A DNA stretch of 64,000 nt, taken from positions 2,542,001-2,606,000 of the forward strand of contig NC_017964.1 of NCBI RefSeq assembly GCF_000219915.2. The letters are read 5' to 3'. The position numbers and the translations under genes were made by a program. Position 1 is the first letter of the stretch; every line of letters begins with the position of its first letter. Shown here piece after piece: positions 1 to 40,079 of the stretch. The notes under the pieces are model-generated. The model had not been told where the DNA came from. It ran no database searches and saw only the letters and a program-made list of their open reading frames with translations. The stretch is from Advenella kashmirensis WT001 (GTDB lineage: Bacteria; Pseudomonadota; Gammaproteobacteria; Burkholderiales; Burkholderiaceae_B).

Positions 1-1230
1 GAGCGAGCCAAGGCGCAGCAGATCCTGCATGCCGGGTCGAAAGTGAGGAAATTTTCGAATCGTCAGACTGGCACCCCGCAAGGCAACCGGCGGGATAATG
101 GCATTGACGCGCGAGCCGTCCTTCAGGCGTGCATCGACCATGGGCGAGCTTTCGTCGATCCGACGGCCCAGGGGCGTAACAATGCGTTCGATGATCCCGA
201 GTACTGATTTTTCGCTACTGAATGTGCCTTTATAGCGGATCAATCGCCCGGCCTTTTCTATAAACAGTTCATCGTAGCGATTCACCATGATTTCAGTGAT
301 GGCCGGATCCGCCAATAAGGGCTCCAGCGGCCCAAGCCCGATTGCTTCGTCCAGTACATTCTGCTTCAGGCGCTCACGATCGATTTCCGGCGGCAACGCC
401 AGGTTTTCAGCGAGAATACGATCGAGCATAGCTGCAGCTTCAAGCCGCAACGCCGAGTCTGTCATTTGGGAAACGTCCTTGCGGCGTAAATCCAGCGCCT
501 GCAGCAGGCTGGCATGCAGCTGCAATTGCCAGCGCTGATCGCGCCCAGCATGTACCCGGTCTGCTCGATGGTTCTGATCGCATTCAGCAGGTGCCTGCCG
601 CAGGGAGACAAACGCTGACATGTCCTGCCGCCCGATTAAGTTCGGAGCCGGGACAGGACCCGGCTGCGTTGCGGCCAGACCACCTTGTGATACCTGAGGT
701 TGATCATTGTGTGCATCATAAACTGGCGTATACACCGATGTATCAAGCGAACCGTCTGATGGCTGACAGAACGAATTTGTTGATGGCTGCCGGGATTGCC
801 TCAGTTCTCCCTGATGTTGTGGCCGACGTTCTGGCGGGCCACTGCTAGCCTGTCCCGGCCCGTGTATAGTATCAATGACCTCGCTGCCACCCCCGGACGT
901 CGAATTGCCAACGACGATATCACGGATGACCATGCGACACGGACCAATCAGTATTTCATCGGCGACAGCTAAAGGCCCGTACTCGGTAATACGCAAGCCA
1001 TTGATAATCGTGCCGGCAAGCGTGCCCATATCTTCAACAAAGACCCCGGCCTGCCGATGAACCAAACGGGCATGTTGCCGGGCCACGCGCCAGCTGCGCA
1101 GGCAAATGCGGCAATCCTTTTGCCTTCCTACAATGGCTGGCAATGCAAATTGGCGACGCTCAAATGTTCCATCTTCAAAGTGCATGTCAATCTCAATCAC
1201 TGTCTCACCCTTAGAAATTTTGATCTGCAT
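1..1230 (-). CDS. cpaF: FHA domain-CpaF (TadA) pilus ATPase, C-terminal part outside window
   Basis: Cytoplasmic ATPase that powers assembly of the Flp/Tad pilus, here with an N-terminal forkhead-associated domain. Reading from an ATG at 1230, residues about 1-110 form the FHA domain (GRQKDCRICLRS, then RQHARL and IINGLRI, the usual GR...S/R-x-H...NG pattern). A low-complexity Gln/Pro/Ser linker follows to about residue 230. After that comes the conserved CpaF N-domain, including LDEAIGLGPLEPLLADP, ITEIMVNRYDELFIE, ESSPMVDARLKDGSRVNAII and SLTIRKF. The window ends before the Walker A motif. FHA domains bind phosphothreonine, so phosphorylation control of the motor is an inference. The frame is open upstream without a stop into the secretin gene. 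An in-frame ATG further upstream (about 1312) is a possible alternative start. No clear Shine-Dalgarno precedes either. Confidence 0.85.
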   Translation of the reverse strand, partial: MQIKISKGETVIEIDMHFEDGTFERRQFALPAIVGRQKDCRICLRSWRVARQHARLVHRQAGVFVEDMGTLAGTIINGLRITEYGPLAVADEILIGPCRMVIRDIVVGNSTSGGGSEVIDTIHGPGQASSGPPERRPQHQGELRQSRQPSTNSFCQPSDGSLDTSVYTPVYDAHNDQPQVSQGGLAATQPGPVPAPNLIGRQDMSAFVSLRQAPAECDQNHRADRVHAGRDQRWQLQLHASLLQALDLRRKDVSQMTDSALRLEAAAMLDRILAENLALPPEIDRERLKQNVLDEAIGLGPLEPLLADPAITEIMVNRYDELFIEKAGRLIRYKGTFSSEKSVLGIIERIVTPLGRRIDESSPMVDARLKDGSRVNAIIPPVALRGASLTIRKFPHFRPGMQDLLRLGSL

Positions 1231-2739
1231 CGGATATCTGGAGTCGTAGCATGGGCTTCCATCGGGAGTGACGCACCCGTATCGGCACACTGCGTTGGCG
1301 TCCAATGTCATTCGCGCTGCTGTGCGGCCAATGACTGGCACGGTTTGCAGGCGGCAACTTACGCGAATATTGCCACCGCTGCCTGCCGGGATCCAGATGG
1401 GGTAATGGCGTTTGACTGACGTTGCCGTCGCTTGCAATTGATCGGACCCGTCCGCGGTTACTGGCGTATTCAATATTGGTGCGCTTTTAAATGTCTCTTC
1501 AATGATGGCGCGTGAACGGGCTGCACGTTTTTGCAAATCACTGTTATCTGCGGAGACCACAACAGGCCGTACAAATATAGCCAGCTCGGTTTCATTGCGC
1601 TGGAACCGGCTTGAGCGAAACAAGGCACCCAGAATAGGCAAATCACCCATACCGGGCAACTTATCGGCATTGCGAAACTGGTCACGAGAGACAAAGCCGG
1701 CCAGCACAAGCGTCTGGCCGGACTGTACATTGAACTCTGTGGATGTACGACGCGTTTTGAGTGCGGGTCCGCCATTAAGCGCCATGGAGGCATCGACCGA
1801 GCTGACCTCAACGTCTATTTTGGATCTCACGTTGCCGTTTTTCTGTATGCGCGGCGTAATGTGCAGACTTACACCGTAGGGTTTGAATACAGTCTGGTTC
1901 TGGCCGTTTTTATCTGTCGTTACATATGGGACCTCGCCACCAGCCAGAAACTCTGCCGTCGCCCCGCTGCGCGCCATCAACTGCGGCTGGGCCAATACGA
2001 CTGCCTGACCTTCCTGAGCCAGGCTCTGCAGGGAAGCCGACAATAGCGCGTTCAGGCCAAAATAGCCAGCAGGCGAAATTGCCCTGAATGGAATATCCAT
2101 CACACTTTGCCCCGGTCTGGCCGACAGGCGCGAGGACGCGGTATCCCAAACGGCCCCCATGGACAGCCCGCCGGCATGGGTGCCCCATTTAACACCGAGC
2201 TCCTGCAGTACATTACGGGGCAGCTCCAGAATCTGTACATCGAGCAGTACCATTTGATCCCAGCCGATCTGGCTGGTCATATCCACAATTTGCGGAAAAT
2301 GCCTGACGAGCACCAGCAGGCGCTCACGATCCGCATCGCTCAGATTGTCTCCTTCGACAATGATCTTGTCACCGACCTGTGTCGTTTTAATCCGCCCTAT
2401 CGTACTGAGCATGCGCTGTATTTCATGTTGCAGTTTTTGTTCCCCGGCAGCACGGACCGCTATGTGAAACTGCTGACTTCGATTTGTTTTATCCCAGACG
2501 TTCAGCACGGTTTGCCCCGGTTCCCGGGCAAACAGCACCAGCTCGTTGTCAGCATCGCTAACCGCATTGACAATCTTTCCGTCGCCTACGGCCACACGGG
2601 CCAGATCGACAAACGGCAACACCTTGACGTCACCCACCTGCAATGTGATTTGCGAGGCAGACTGCTCGTCTGCATACGACGGCACCATCATGCCGACTTC
2701 CAGTACAACAAAAAATGAAAATGCATAAATCAACTTCAT
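1231..2739 (-). CDS. cpaC: Tad pilus outer-membrane secretin CpaC/RcpA (no stop codon before FHA-CpaF)
   Basis: Forms the outer-membrane channel for the Flp/Tad pilus. The ATG at 2739 opens a signal peptide (MKLIYAFSFFVVLEV, cleavage expected after PSYA). A pilus-secretin N-domain follows (QITLQVGDVKVLPFVDLARV ... GDGKIVNAVSD). The secretin core carries AQPQLMARSGATAEFLAGGE and the C-terminal signature SGQTLVLAGFVSRD ... LPGMGDLPILGALFRSSRF ... ETELAIFVRPVVV. The expected end of the family is shortly after that last motif, near 1500. Instead the frame stays open, and about 90 codons later it enters the FHA-CpaF reading frame without any stop; I checked every codon from 2739 to 1. An alternative frame has a TAA near 1360, which a one-base indel would bring into register. 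The end coordinate given is therefore nominal. Confidence 0.85.
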
Positions 2740-2750
2740 GGCGCTTCCTG

Positions 2751-3782
2751 CTAATTCGTGGGTACGGCTGGCGTCTGAATCTGAACGGTCTCTTTATCAC
2801 GAATATCATCAGCGTCAGCCGACACGGTGTCTTTAGTAACTACGGGTTCAACCGGCGAGGCACTGACACCGGGCAGGGAGTTGATCCAGGCGCTCACGAT
2901 GTCTTCTGTCTCGGGCAGTTCAATAAGTCCTCTGGACAACTCGGGCGTGCTCGACCTTGGCTCTGTGACAAGTGCCGGTAACCTGTGTTGCGGCTGGTTG
3001 CCATAAATAACTGCCGGTCTGGTCCGTGCAACGGATAGCGGTTTGGCAATGCCCAGCAGCGTTGCCAAATCTCCCTGGACGCCCTTGTTGCTTGCCTTGG
3101 CGTCACTCGGATGGCGCAACAGGGCCGTAATGGTGCCAGCCTGCCGTGCTGCGACCAGCCGGGCCGCCTCTTCCGGTGCGGTGTCCAGCGTAACCGTGGA
3201 AAAATCGGTGCCTTGAGTCGGTTCATTTGCAGAACCAGACTGTTGGCTGTCACTACCGGTGGCCAGCACCAATACGCCCTGTAACAGCGGCGCCGTAATC
3301 CGCTTGCGGCGGTACTCGAAAGACACATAAAGATCAATCAGGTCGCCCGGCACCAGCAAACCTGAGACTGACTTGATGGCATCCACCGGAATGGTAATGG
3401 CGCGTCTGCCGTTACGCACTTTCTGTGAGAACGCTTCGTGTCGACGGGGTGCCAGATTGGCGCGCAACAAAATATCACCTTTGCGTACTGCGGTTGTCAC
3501 CACTTTGCCTTCGATACTTTGCACCTCTTCGGGAGCAATACTGCCGCTGGGAACCCAACTGGCCGGGACCGGCATGACTGCCAGATGCAAACGTTCCAGT
3601 CGCAATCCTTCGGGCAGATCAAAATCGGCAACGATCCGGTTGACCGTTCGCACTTTGGCCTGCTCGTCGAGCGCCCGGATATGATCCTGTATATAGCGCC
3701 GCGCAAACCAGGCCGCCGCCAGACCTGCCACAATGGCAGCAAGCAATAGCCAGGTATTGCGGCTTAATCTGAAGATTTGCAT
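2751..3782 (-). CDS. cpaB: Flp pilus assembly protein CpaB/RcpC
   Basis: 343-residue periplasm-facing pilus assembly factor that works with the secretin. One N-terminal membrane anchor (about residues 12-27, WLLLAAIVAGLAAAWFA) is followed by the region that precedes the SAF domain (VPASWVPSGSIAPEEVQSIEG). The SAF/RcpC core follows (VVTTAVRKGDILLRANLA, RAITIPVDAIKSVSGLLVPG, DLIDLYVSF). The acidic/Pro-rich C-terminus has no recognised domain. It lies 11 bases upstream of the secretin gene on the same strand, the usual cpaB-cpaC order, so co-transcription is very likely. The reading frame is intact. Confidence 0.93.
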   Translation of the reverse strand: MQIFRLSRNTWLLLAAIVAGLAAAWFARRYIQDHIRALDEQAKVRTVNRIVADFDLPEGLRLERLHLAVMPVPASWVPSGSIAPEEVQSIEGKVVTTAVRKGDILLRANLAPRRHEAFSQKVRNGRRAITIPVDAIKSVSGLLVPGDLIDLYVSFEYRRKRITAPLLQGVLVLATGSDSQQSGSANEPTQGTDFSTVTLDTAPEEAARLVAARQAGTITALLRHPSDAKASNKGVQGDLATLLGIAKPLSVARTRPAVIYGNQPQHRLPALVTEPRSSTPELSRGLIELPETEDIVSAWINSLPGVSASPVEPVVTKDTVSADADDIRDKETVQIQTPAVPTN

Positions 3783-28504: not shown

Positions 28505-30767
28505 TCAGGCGGCAATGATATCCAGTTTGGCAACAGCCAGGGCCAGCGTTTTGGCGCCGGCATCCCTAAATACAATCTCCGCCTGGGCATCTGCGCCCTG
28601 TCCGCTTAACCTGATGATTGTTCCATCACCAAAGCGCGCATGACGCACGCCCTGACCGATCCGGTATTGCTTGCCGCTGACGCTGACGCCCGAGCTTAAA
28701 CTGCGGGCGCCCGCGGTTCTATTCTGCCCGTAGACGGACGCGCATGCGCGTCAACATGCAAACGCATGCCCCAGGAAGGCTCGGCCTGCTCACGCGTACG
28801 CGGCGTCAGCCACTTCAGATGATCCTCGGGCAGTTCGTCCAGAAAGCGCGATCGCATCGAGTAGCGCGTCTGTCCATGCAGCATGCGTGCATGCGCCAGA
28901 CTGATGGTCAGGCGTTCCTTGGCACGCGTAATGGCCACATACATCAGGCGGCGCTCTTCCTGCAGTCCGTCTTCGGCCATCATACTGTTTTCATGAGGGA
29001 ACAGGCCCTCTTCCACACCGGTGATAAAGACAGAGTCAAACTCCAGTCCCTTGGCAGCATGAATGGTCATGAGTTGCACGGCATCCTGACCGGCCTGCGC
29101 CTGGTTGTCACCCGCTTCAAGTGAGGCATGGGACAAAAAAAGCGCCAGCGGTGTGGTCTGTTCCTGAGCAAATGGAGAATCCGGATCGTCTGGTGCGACC
29201 GAACGCTCAACCAGGGCCATGGCAGCTTTGCCTTCCAGATTTTCCTCGGCACAGAACGCAGTGGCCGCGTTGATAAGCTCGCCCAGGTTTTCCAGCCGCT
29301 CTGCTCCTTCGCGTTCGGCTTCGTAGTGCGTGGTCAAGCCGGAAATATCATTGACGTGCTTGATCAGTTCGGCAAGCGTCAGCGTTTGCGCGGCGTCGCG
29401 CAGTGTTTCAATCAATTTGGCAAAGGCCAGTAGCTTGCCGCCGCTGCGACCGGACACCGCCCCTACGGCGTGAATCAGATTACAACCAATCTGACGTGCC
29501 GAATCGGTGAGGTTTTCCAACGTTCTGGCGCCGATACCACGCGCCGGAAAATTCACGACGCGCATGAACGAGGTATCATCATCGCCGCTGGCTACTAATC
29601 TGAGGTAGGCCAGGACATGCTTGATTTCCTGGCGCTCGAAAAAGCGCAGACCACCGTAGACCTTGTAAGGAATGTGTGCAGAAAAAAGGGCATGTTCAAT
29701 AGGCCGCGATTGCGCGTTGCTGCGATACAAAACCGCAATTTCGCTGCGCATGCGACCCTCATTAATCTGCGCGCGAATTTCATCCACGACCACTGGGCCT
29801 CCAGCAGATCGGTAGGCTGTTCAACAACCCGAAGCAGCTCGCCTTCGCCCCTGTCGGTCCACAGATTTTTGCCAAGACGCTCGGTATTGTGCTCGATCAG
29901 CGCATTGGCGGCATCCAGAATGTGGCCAAAAGAACGGTAGTTCTGCTCCAGCCGGATAATATTGTCACCTGCATAGTCGCGCTCAAAAGTGGACATATTG
30001 CCCACGTTGGCGCCACGGAAAGCGTAAATGGACTGGTCATCGTCACCCACGGCAAACAGCGACGCATCGCCGCCGGCCAGCAGACAGAGCCACTTGTATT
30101 GCAGTGTATTGGTGTCCTGAAACTCGTCGACCAGAATATAACGAAAGCGCCGCTGATAGTGCTCGCGCACCAGAGCATTACGCGACAACAGCTCATAGGC
30201 GCGCAGCAGTAATTCGGCAAAATCGACAACGCCCTCGCGCTGGCACTGTTCCTGGTACAGCTGATAAATTTCTGCCAGACGCTTGCGATGCGCATCCCAC
30301 ACTTCAACGTGCTCGGGCCGTTCGCCGTTTTCCTTGGCATTATTGATGAAGCGCTGCACATCCCTGGGGGGAAACTTTTCGTCGTCGATATCATTGGCTT
30401 TGATCAGGCGCTTGATAGCTGCCAGTTGATCTGCGATATCGAGGATCTGGAAATTTTGTGGCAGACCGGCATCGCGATAATGCGCACGCAAAAGCCGGTT
30501 GCATAAACCGTGGAAAGTGCCCACCCACATGCCGCGGGTATCCACCGGCAACATCGCCGTCAGGCGCGTAAGCATTTCACGCGCCGCCTTATTGGTAAAG
30601 GTAACGGCGAGCACGCCGTAAGGACTGACTTTTCCATTCTGGATCAGCCAGGCCATACGGGTAGTGAGTACTTTGGTTTTACCACTACCGGCGCCAGCCA
30701 GAACAAGCGTATGTTTACTGGCTGTGGTTACCGCCGCCAGTTGCTCAGGATTTAACTGTCCGATCAT
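28505..30767 (-). CDS. uvrD: DNA helicase UvrD/Rep family (two frame breaks)
   Basis: Superfamily 1A 3'-5' helicase for repair and replication. In order: LNPEQLAAVTTASKHTLVLA, Walker A GAGSGKT, VTFTNKAAREM (Ia), VGTFHGLCNRLLR (Ib), ILVDEFQDTN (II), VGDDDQSIYAFRGA (III), LEQNYRS (IV), QLMTIHAAKGLEFDSVFI (V), RRLMYVAITRAKE (VI), then the C-terminal tail VRHARFGDGTIIRLSG ending at 28505. Two frame breaks: one near 29790 (between LLEAQW and VVDEIRAQINEG) and one near 28700 (between RIEPRAPAV and SLSSGVSVSG). About 754 residues after repair. Overlaps the desaturase gene by four bases. Both breaks look like single-base errors. Confidence 0.93.
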
Positions 30768-32349: not shown

Positions 32350-33710
32350 TTATTTGCTGCGTTCCAGTACAGCTGCAAAAAAGCCGTCAGTGCCGTGAAC
32401 ATCCGGGCGCAGCTTCAGATAAGGCGTCGTCATGCCCAGGTCAGGGCAGCGGTCTCCCAGTACCGCCTGGGCGTTAAGCAGTGTGAATTCGGGATGCGCT
32501 GCCAGAAACGCATCCACCTGCTGTTCGTTTTCCTGCGGCAGCACGCTGCAGGTGGAATACACCAGCCGACCGCCCGGTGCGACACAGCGTGCAGCACTGT
32601 TCAGAATGCGCGCCTGCAGTTCAGTCAGTTCCTGCACGCTGGCCGGAGACTGACGCCACTTGAGATCAGGATTGCGCCGCAATGTGCCGACACCGGTACA
32701 CGGCGCATCGACCAGCACCTTGTCGGCCTTGCCGGCCAGTCGTTTCACACGGGTATCATTTTCGTTCGATATGGCAATCGGCGTCACGTTCGACAGGCCG
32801 CTACGGGCGATACGGGGCTTGGCTTTGGCCAGACGCGCAGCCGATACATCCAAGGCATAAAGCGACCGGCCGAGCGCATCAATGCGCCCAGCAACAATGT
32901 TTTGCCGCCAGCGCCGGCGCAAAAATCAATCACCATATCGGTACGTTTTGGTCCGACCAGCAGCGCCAGCAACTGACTGCCTTCATCCTGCACTTCCAGC
33001 GAGCCGTTTTCGAACAGGGCCCAGCGGGAAATGGCCGGCTTGCCGTTGAGCCGAATGCCCCAGGGCGAATACGGTGTCGGCTGCGGGTCAAACTCGGCCA
33101 CCGGTGTATCCTTCATTTGGGCCAATACTGTATCCCTGTCGACCTTGAAGGGGTTCACACGCAGATCAAGCGGCGCCTTGGTATTGAGCGCTGCGATCAG
33201 GCTTTCAAATTCGTCCAGCTGGCTCATATGTTCGTACAGCCAGTCAGGCAGGCTGGCGCGTATTTCAGGAGCCAGCGAAGCCGGGTCGATGGTGTCCATG
33301 CGCAACAGCCAGCTTTTCTCTTCTTCAGAAAGCTGGCCGGCAATGGTGTCCTTGCCCACGACCGAGGCCAGTCCCAGAATGGCCAGGCGCTCCAGCGCAG
33401 GCCCTGTACCGCTTTCGGCGTATTGCCGGTAGCGACGCAAATGACGCAGCACATCGAACACCGCCTCGGCCACTTCATTGCGATCGCGTCCGCCCAGCGA
33501 TTTGTTGGCCCGGAACCAGGCAGACAACACGGCATCTGCCGGATGTTTCCACTTGAGCACTTCGTTCAGAACGTCGCGGATCTGACCCAGGCGAATGGTG
33601 TAGACGCCCCGCTGGCGCGCACCGGGCTGAGGTGCGCGCGGCGTGCGTCGGGTGAAATCGGGTTTCACAGAACGGCGTCCTGTGTCTTTTCTAGCGGATT
33701 TGATTGTCAT
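32350..33710 (-). CDS. rsmB: 16S rRNA m5C967 methyltransferase RsmB (one frame break)
   Basis: N-terminal NusB-like domain (RDVLNEVLKWKHPADAVLSA, NEVAEAVFDVLRHLRRY). The catalytic domain has ENGSLEVQDEGSQLLALLVG, FCAGAGGKTLLLGALM (SAM site), VLVDAPCTGVGTLRRNPDLK (the P-C motif) and LVYSTCSVLPQENEQQV (second catalytic Cys). A one-base gap near 32885 splits the SAM site from SLYALDVSAARLAK. About 454 residues after repair. It methylates C967 of 16S rRNA. Upstream gene in the same direction is purN. Confidence 0.92.
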
Positions 33711-33809: not shown

Positions 33810-34484
33810 TCAGCTGACATATTCCGTGTCTGCGTAAAACTGCTGTAAGGGCAGTTTTTCTGTAAAGCCTACTTTGCCTTGTTCATCCAGAAACACTGCT
33901 TTTTGCGCGAGCCAGCGCATGACCTGGGGATAGAGCTTATGCTCCATGACCAGCACCCGCTGCTCCAGGCTCTGGACGGTATCGTCAGCCATGACGGGAA
34001 CAACCGCCTGAGCGATGATGGGCCCTGGTCCAGCTCGGGAATAACAAAATGCACGCTGCAGCCATGAACACGTACCCCGGCATCCAGTGCCTGCTGGTGA
34101 GTATGCAGTCCCGGAAACAGGGCAGAAGTGAAGGATGTATATTGATCAGCCGCCCGGCGTAGTGCTGCACGAACGCATCGCTCAGAATGCGCATGAAGCC
34201 GGCGAGCAGCACCAGATCAGGCTGATAGCGATCAATGCATGCGGCCAGCGCCTGATCATACTGAACGCGGGTCTGGCCGCCTGCCGCATCATACACCAGT
34301 TGTTCGGTCTGAATACCCTGCGCCCGCGCCCAGACCAATCCTTCGCTGTTGGCACTATGCGAGATGACGGCGCTGATCTTGACATTTGCCATTTGGCTTG
34401 CGGCATGCACCAGGCTTTCATATTGGAGCCGCGCCCGGAAATAAGGATGACGACCCGGGCTGCCGCAGGATTTGTTGGTTTCAA
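33810..34484 (-). CDS. purN: Phosphoribosylglycinamide formyltransferase PurN (three frame breaks)
   Basis: Folate-dependent third step of purine synthesis. Recognisable in pieces: [13 protein letters not shown] (phosphate site; TTG start at 34484), [53 protein letters not shown] (catalytic N and H), [11 protein letters not shown] (catalytic D) and [19 protein letters not shown] to the C-terminus. The frame changes near 34425, 34115 and 34020, each fixable by one base (the last in a C-run, GGCCC before ATC). An essential-pathway gene with three breaks in 675 bases points to sequence error. Divergent from ribF. Confidence 0.88.
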
Positions 34485-38356: not shown

Positions 38357-38867
38357 GGCAGTACAGCCGGCGGCACGCGTTATACCGTATATGATGTGGA
38401 TTGCGCTGGCATTGGTGCTGCTCGCCGCAGACCAAATCAGCAAACAGTACTTTGAGCAGAATTTCGAGTATCTGCAACGCGTGAATGTGCTGCCGTTCTT
38501 CGATTTCATTCTGATCTACAATCAGGGTGCAGCCTTCAGCATGCTGGCAGACGGCGCTGGCTGGCAGCGCTGGTTTTTCATGGCGCTGGGCCTGGCCGCG
38601 TCGGCGTTCATTCTGTATCTGCTGCGCAAGCACCGCGAGCAGCCGCTTTTCTGCCTGGCGCTGGCGCTGATACTGGCCGGGGCCATCGGCAACGTCATAG
38701 ACAGAACGCTCTACGGGCATGTCATTGATTTTCTGCTGTTTTACTGGAACGACGCCTATTTCCCGGCGTTCAATCTGGCCGACACGTTTATTACCATCGG
38801 GGCCGTACTGCTGGTCCTGGATGAACTGCTGCGCTATCTGCGCAACAAAAGGGAGCAACAGACATGA
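38349..38867 (+). CDS. lspA: Lipoprotein signal peptidase II
   Basis: 172 residues with four membrane helices. The catalytic aspartate motifs are [20 protein letters not shown] and [20 protein letters not shown]; also [11 protein letters not shown] near the middle. It cleaves signal peptides of diacylglyceryl lipoproteins. The ATG at 38349 lies within the ileS stop region, and the gene overlaps coaBC by four bases, so coupling is expected. Confidence 0.95.
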
Positions 38868-40079
38868 GTCCGCTTTCCGGCAAGCGTATCCTGATCGGCG
38901 TCACCGGCGGCATCGCCTGCTACAAGGCGGCTGAACTGGTGCGCCGGCTGCAGGATCACGGCGCGACCATCACGGTTGCCATGACGCATGCGGCAACCCA
39001 GTTCGTCACACCCACAACATTCCAGGCGCTCTCCGGCAATCCGGTGTATACCGAAACGCTGGACGAGCGCATGGAAAACAGCATGGCGCACATCAATCTG
39101 AGTCGCCAGGCCGATCTGATTCTGGTCGTACCGGGCAGCGCCGATTTCATGGCCAAACTGGCTCATGGCCTGGCAGACGATTTGCTCTCGACGGTGTGTC
39201 TGGCGCGCGGGATGTGCCCGCTGGTGGTGGTGCCTGCCATGAATCGGGAAATGTGGGGCCATCCGGCAACGCAACGCAATGCGGCGCAACTGCGCAATGA
39301 CGGCGTCAGGCTCTGGGGACCGGCCAGCGGCTCGCAGGCCTGTGGCGAGGTGGGCGATGGACGCATGCTGGAACCGGAGCAGATTGTTTTTGAAACGCAC
39401 GCTTTCTTCCAGAGCAAAGCACTTGCCGGCAAAAACATTCTGGTGACCGCGGGACCGACACAGGAAGATATTGATCCGGTTCGCTTTATCAGCAACCGGT
39501 CCTCGGGAAAAATGGGTTACGCCATTGCCCGCGCTGCCTGGGAAGCCGGTGCGCGCGTGACGCTGGTCTCCGGCCCCACTGCGCTGGATGCGCCTTACGG
39601 CGTTGATCGCATCAATGTAAAAACAGCCCGGCAAATGCATGCCCACGTCATGCAACTGGCGCCGGAGCAGGACATCTTTATCTCGGTAGCGGCTGTAGCA
39701 GACTGGCGGGTCAGCAATACGCAAGCCCAGAAAGTTAAAAAAACCGGTGCCCAAAGTGGCCTGGACCTGACGCTGACCGAAAATCCGGATATTCTGCTGA
39801 AGTGGCCGCCCTGGCCCAGGCCCATGGTGTGTTGGTTTTGCCGCTGAAACCGAAAACCTGCACGACTATGCCGAAGCCAAGCGCAAACGAAAAAAAATAC
39901 CCCTGCTGGTCGGCAATCTGGCTCAGGAAACCATGGAGTCGGATCAGTCCCGCATGGTGCTGTTCGACGATCAGGGTAGCCACCCCCTGCCCGTACTGGA
40001 TAAGCTGGATGCCGCGCGGCGACTGATCGCAGAAATCGCCAACCGCACCCTCAGATCCAACACCTCCACACGCCCTTGA
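38864..40079 (+). CDS. coaBC: Bifunctional CoaBC (PPCDC / PPCS) (one frame break)
   Basis: N-terminal flavoprotein decarboxylase CoaC: ILIGVTGGIACYKAAELVRR, MTHAATQFVTPTTFQALSGN, and VVVPAMNREMWGHPATQRN with the catalytic-site pattern. C-terminal CoaB synthetase: KNILVTAGPTQEDIDPVRFI, SNRSSGKMGYAIARAAWEAG, and VAAVADWRVSN. A one-base gap near 39800 (after NPDILLKW) moves the frame. The rest continues VGFAAETENLHDYAEAKRKR ... KIPLLVGN ... DKLDAARRLIAEIA, ending at 40079. About 405 residues. Essential for CoA synthesis. Confidence 0.93.

Follow-up and report, generated by a model that had tools for sequence, protein, structure and literature searches.

A single open frame joining the Tad secretin and FHA-CpaF ATPase genes of Advenella kashmirensis WT001 very probably results from one base missing in the assembly

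The Tad (Flp) pilus locus of Advenella kashmirensis WT001 raises the question of whether a secretin and an FHA-domain CpaF ATPase can be parts of one protein. Tad secretins are located in the outer membrane, and CpaF/TadA ATPases are located in the cytoplasm. The window analysed here is a stretch of 64,000 nucleotides of contig NC_017964.1. On its minus strand, the frame beginning with the ATG at position 2739 runs to the window edge through 913 codons without a stop (window 1..2739). The earlier note described this stop-free frame with its secretin, FHA, and CpaF domains, and the description was borne out. On the whole contig, the open frame ends at L002:9198, 804 bases past the window edge, and has a total length of 1,180 aa. 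Two explanations had been offered for it: a one-base error that hides the secretin stop, or a true fusion or coupling, which would represent a new arrangement of the Tad pilus.

A Pfam search of the fused frame revealed four domains: T2SS-T3SS_pil_N (PF13629, residues 28–95, E = 8.1e-13), the secretin core (PF00263, residues 240–395, E = 1.2e-42), FHA (PF00498, residues 536–599, E = 5.7e-13), and T2SSE ATPase (PF00437, residues 801–1077, E = 7.7e-60). The pilus N-terminal domain and the secretin core, both within the first 395 residues, identify the first part as a Tad secretin of the RcpA/CpaC type, whose gene occupies positions 1214..2739 of the minus strand and breaks its frame at approximately 1376–1393. 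The T2SSE domain preceded by the N-terminal FHA domain identifies the second part as a CpaF/TadA ATPase, and its top NCBIfam match is the TadA-family profile TIGR03819 (325.7 bits, under the cut-off of 373.15). The gene encoding RcpC/CpaB (2751..3782, minus strand, PF16976) is located upstream, and two T2SSF proteins (TadB/TadC, PF00482) are encoded downstream of the secretin–ATPase frame, as expected for a Tad pilus locus. The order of RcpC, secretin, FHA, ATPase, and two T2SSF domains is the same as in the Tad/Flp operon of Alcaligenaceae (rcpC/cpaB, secretin, FHA-CpaF, tadB, tadC); the sole difference is the absence of a stop between the secretin and FHA-CpaF.

Residues 1–474 or 1–455 of the secretin are 85–91% identical to those of the congeners G001, G006, G007, and G009. 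A MAFFT alignment with the stretches of the five closest congeners (L033–L037) indicated that the assembly is one base shorter than 5/5 of them within the G+C-rich positions 1376–1393 (minus strand). In the BLASTn comparison with three congeners, the junction gap was found at about 1382–1392, placed on slightly different bases for each congener. Ahead of the 1376–1393 stretch, the secretin frame agrees with that of the congeners; past it, the fused frame coincides with the FHA frame. The latter is interrupted by stop codons ahead of the ATPase start in all five congeners, whose secretin continues past the junction in another frame, which encodes a basic tail and stops at or just ahead of the ATPase start. 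This tail, VPIRVRHSRWKPMLRL, is also present in the studied assembly, in the other frame, and differs by one residue in G001, G006, and G007 and by more in G003 and G009. Its frame ends in the studied assembly with a TAA (1211..1213, minus strand, from the alignment and frame reading), which would be the secretin stop in the congeners' frame, is unread in the fused frame, and lies just ahead of the presumed ATPase start at 1200. The supposed one-base error is thus strongly supported, while the hidden stop is at 1213–1211 and not near 1360, where it had been placed. A TAA does exist there (1361, offset +1), outside the frame of the congeners' secretin tail; the relevant TAA belongs to the third frame.

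The pattern of substitutions in the joining sequence points in the same direction. In the gap-free block 1288–1223, 77 differences from the five congeners fall on codon positions 1, 2, and 3 of the tail frame as 18, 12, and 47, and the same differences counted in the fused frame are distributed as 12, 47, and 18; since the five comparisons share ancestry, this count is descriptive and carries no p-value. The predominance of third positions of the tail frame indicates that selection has acted on a separate secretin tail and not on a fused joining sequence. The congener starts aligned to position 1200 are three ATG and two GTG codons, and the secretin stop and the presumed ATPase start of these congeners are no more than about a dozen bases apart, with an overlap in one of the five.

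In a comparison with relatives, 61 genomes, including the studied one, were searched, and 37 stretches were fetched from 36 other genomes. Both the secretin and FHA were mapped in 36 of the 37 stretches, and a secretin stop separates them in 36/36. This stop is located either before the FHA-matched stretch or no more than 14 bases inside it, where the match precedes the FHA domain proper. The remaining stretch (L056) contains only the ATPase half, the locus being divided between contigs, and is outside this count. Thirty-five relatives show the order secretin, FHA, ATPase; in another, the contig ends after secretin and FHA. Together with four genomes read later, a stop between the secretin and FHA-CpaF was found in 40/40 other genomes read by frame, and a fusion in none of them. 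The inspection of tad loci for a normal secretin end, which the earlier note had suggested as a check, thus speaks against a true fusion and the new Tad arrangement. The relatives do not share the fusion, and in the fused frame the joining sequence is not conserved.

A family search with the secretin N-domain covered 151 genomes and gave 141 matches; among the matches listed, no secretin frame longer than 920 aa was found besides that of the studied genome. The next four longest secretin frames among these matches (775–920 aa) are separate genes. They stop short of FHA or extend at most 16 bases into the FHA-matched stretch, in a frame different from that of FHA, and the DNA fetched from these relatives has 70–74% G+C, so that long open frames are to be expected. 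Seven genomes with apparent joined frames of more than 1,000 aa (G011, G015, G023, G027, G030, G035, and G044) were considered as a possible recurrent fusion; this was rejected, because the DNA contains a stop between the two genes in 7/7 of them (L038–L044).

As for the ATPase half, FHA and ATPase share one frame in 35/35 relatives with both on one stretch (a frame match only, for window positions 1–1200, in L033–L069). Judging by these frames, a combined FHA-CpaF protein seems to be the standard form across the family. In the plasmid collection, 19 records gave only short matches, covering 2–9% of the query at the ATPase end.

A genuine functional fusion of the secretin and FHA-CpaF, processed after translation and forming a new Tad arrangement, would account for the open frame, which is the one observation in its favour. 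However, such a fusion is missing from the 40 other genomes, no other secretin frame of comparable length appears among the matches listed in the family search, and, read in the fused frame, the differences in the block 1288–1223 concentrate on second codon positions. In addition, a single chain combining an outer-membrane and a cytoplasmic part would be a topological contradiction. We consider this fusion extremely improbable. Scarcely more credible is a variant in which the strain makes the 1,180-residue chain, tolerated or processed, plus a separately initiated ATPase. Programmed ribosomal frameshifting between the secretin and ATPase genes might be suggested by the five closest congeners, in which the two genes adjoin each other in different frames, but the fusion in the studied assembly requires no frameshifting, and in 5/5 congeners stop codons interrupt the FHA frame before the ATPase start is reached. 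The RNA fold predicted at the junction is unremarkable (z = −1.44). The chance of frameshifting is put as low as that of the functional fusion. A search of the window for RNA elements (ARAGORN; Rfam at the gathering threshold) yielded one tRNA and nothing else.

Only one rival to an assembly indel deserves serious consideration: a recent, real one-base deletion in the strain. The resulting secretin would carry a foreign tail and continue in frame into FHA-CpaF, and the pilus would then probably be broken or would depend on translation starting again at the ATPase gene's start codon. The frame is indeed open throughout in the assembly, a single mutation and a single error look alike in an assembled sequence, and laboratory strains commonly lose surface appendages. 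On the other hand, no decay is visible in the tail frame, and about one in four of the syntenic genes that were compared changes frame. The genes that do so include coaBC; rpoB and valS, which are needed for life, are also affected. Frame changes on this scale imply a high prior for error, so we regard a real deletion as unlikely, and an assembly indel, i.e., one base missing through a sequencing or consensus error from otherwise ordinary Tad genes, as very probable.

The frame changes were assessed in a 74-kb region, where genes were counted only if they were at least 60% identical and at least 70% covered. The studied assembly consists of two contigs, one of 4,365,995 bases. Relative to it, 11/42 genes of G007, 11/37 of G001, and 9/37 of G006 change frame; in the reverse direction, 10/47, 8/41, and 8/42 of the assembly's frames change, whereas in six comparisons between congeners only 0–2 of 58 genes do so. 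Per aligned kb, this amounts to 0.29–0.35 frame changes for congener genes against the assembly and 0.23–0.30 in the reverse direction, versus 0–0.033 between congeners. Thirty-five length differences of one or two bases are common to the comparisons with at least two of the three congeners: 26 one-base losses, six one-base gains, and three two-base differences. The junction gap is absent from these 35, because BLASTn places it on slightly different bases in each congener. When all DNA is considered, one-base length differences are only modestly more frequent against the congeners (1.18–2.04 per kb) than between them (0.87–1.53 per kb), and against G007 alone, losses and gains are even (52 vs. 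51).

Genes required for viability are also divided in this assembly. The rpoB gene is in two pieces in different frames (G000:C1:4312569-4316643, outside the window), and valS is in four pieces over three frames (G000:C1:2332130-2334880, outside the window); both are whole in 6/6 congeners searched. The first and last valS pieces share a 954-codon open frame, and profile positions 132–549 are found only in other frames. In three further genomes, valS is whole (3/3), and rpoB is whole in two, being cut by contig ends in G038. Since no cell would be expected to survive with its rpoB and valS genes divided like this, false frame breaks are very probably present in the assembly, and the secretin gene very probably carries another break of this kind. 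The surplus of frame breaks is thus assembly-wide and includes essential genes. The rpoC and main dnaE genes are intact, and the secretin break could instead be a true mutation. A second dnaE-family gene (G000:C1:1212390-1215039, outside the window) occupies two frames, the longest of 817 aa; its counterparts in G001, G003, and G006 are single frames of 1,179–1,181 aa.

If the assembly indel is accepted, the Advenella locus would contain two ordinary, separate genes of the Tad (Flp) pilus operon: one of about 509 codons for the secretin, and one of about 667 codons for the FHA-domain CpaF/TadA ATPase. The loss of a base by error near the 3' end of the secretin gene would make them read as one frame. 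The ATPase gene would start at the GTG at 1200 and extend on the minus strand through positions 1..1200 to L002:9198 beyond the window, covering the PF00498 and PF00437 matches. Given the proximity of stop and start in the congeners, the two genes are probably translated one after the other in a coupled manner. As family biology suggests, the secretin would reach the outer membrane and the ATPase would stay in the cytoplasm. No fusion protein would be made, and with separate proteins the topological contradiction raised initially vanishes.

The case resembles assembly-indel artefacts in its one-base loss against five congeners, its conserved out-of-frame tail, and the many frame changes in the same assembly, essential genes included. 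Unlike the usual artefact, in which a gene is cut short, the shift here leaves the next gene in frame, and two genes merge. The giant secretin–ATPase frame very probably does not correspond to a real protein, and knowledge of Tad pili is unchanged. In an assembly with so many frame breaks, any gene fusion, split gene, or pseudogene needs comparison with congeners before it is trusted.

Several other genes in and around the window illustrate this. Homologues of the uvrD type (28508–30767) and the rsmB type (32353–33710), both assigned below their NCBIfam cut-offs, as well as purN (33813–34419) and coaBC (38864–40067), change frame once or twice relative to the congeners; these changes are probably assembly errors like that in the secretin gene. 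Two genes immediately beyond the window, one CoA-transferase-like (L002:2164-3350) and one acyl-CoA-dehydrogenase-like (L002:4362-6065), both named by eye from their translations, are divided between frames, and each is a single frame in the congener G001.
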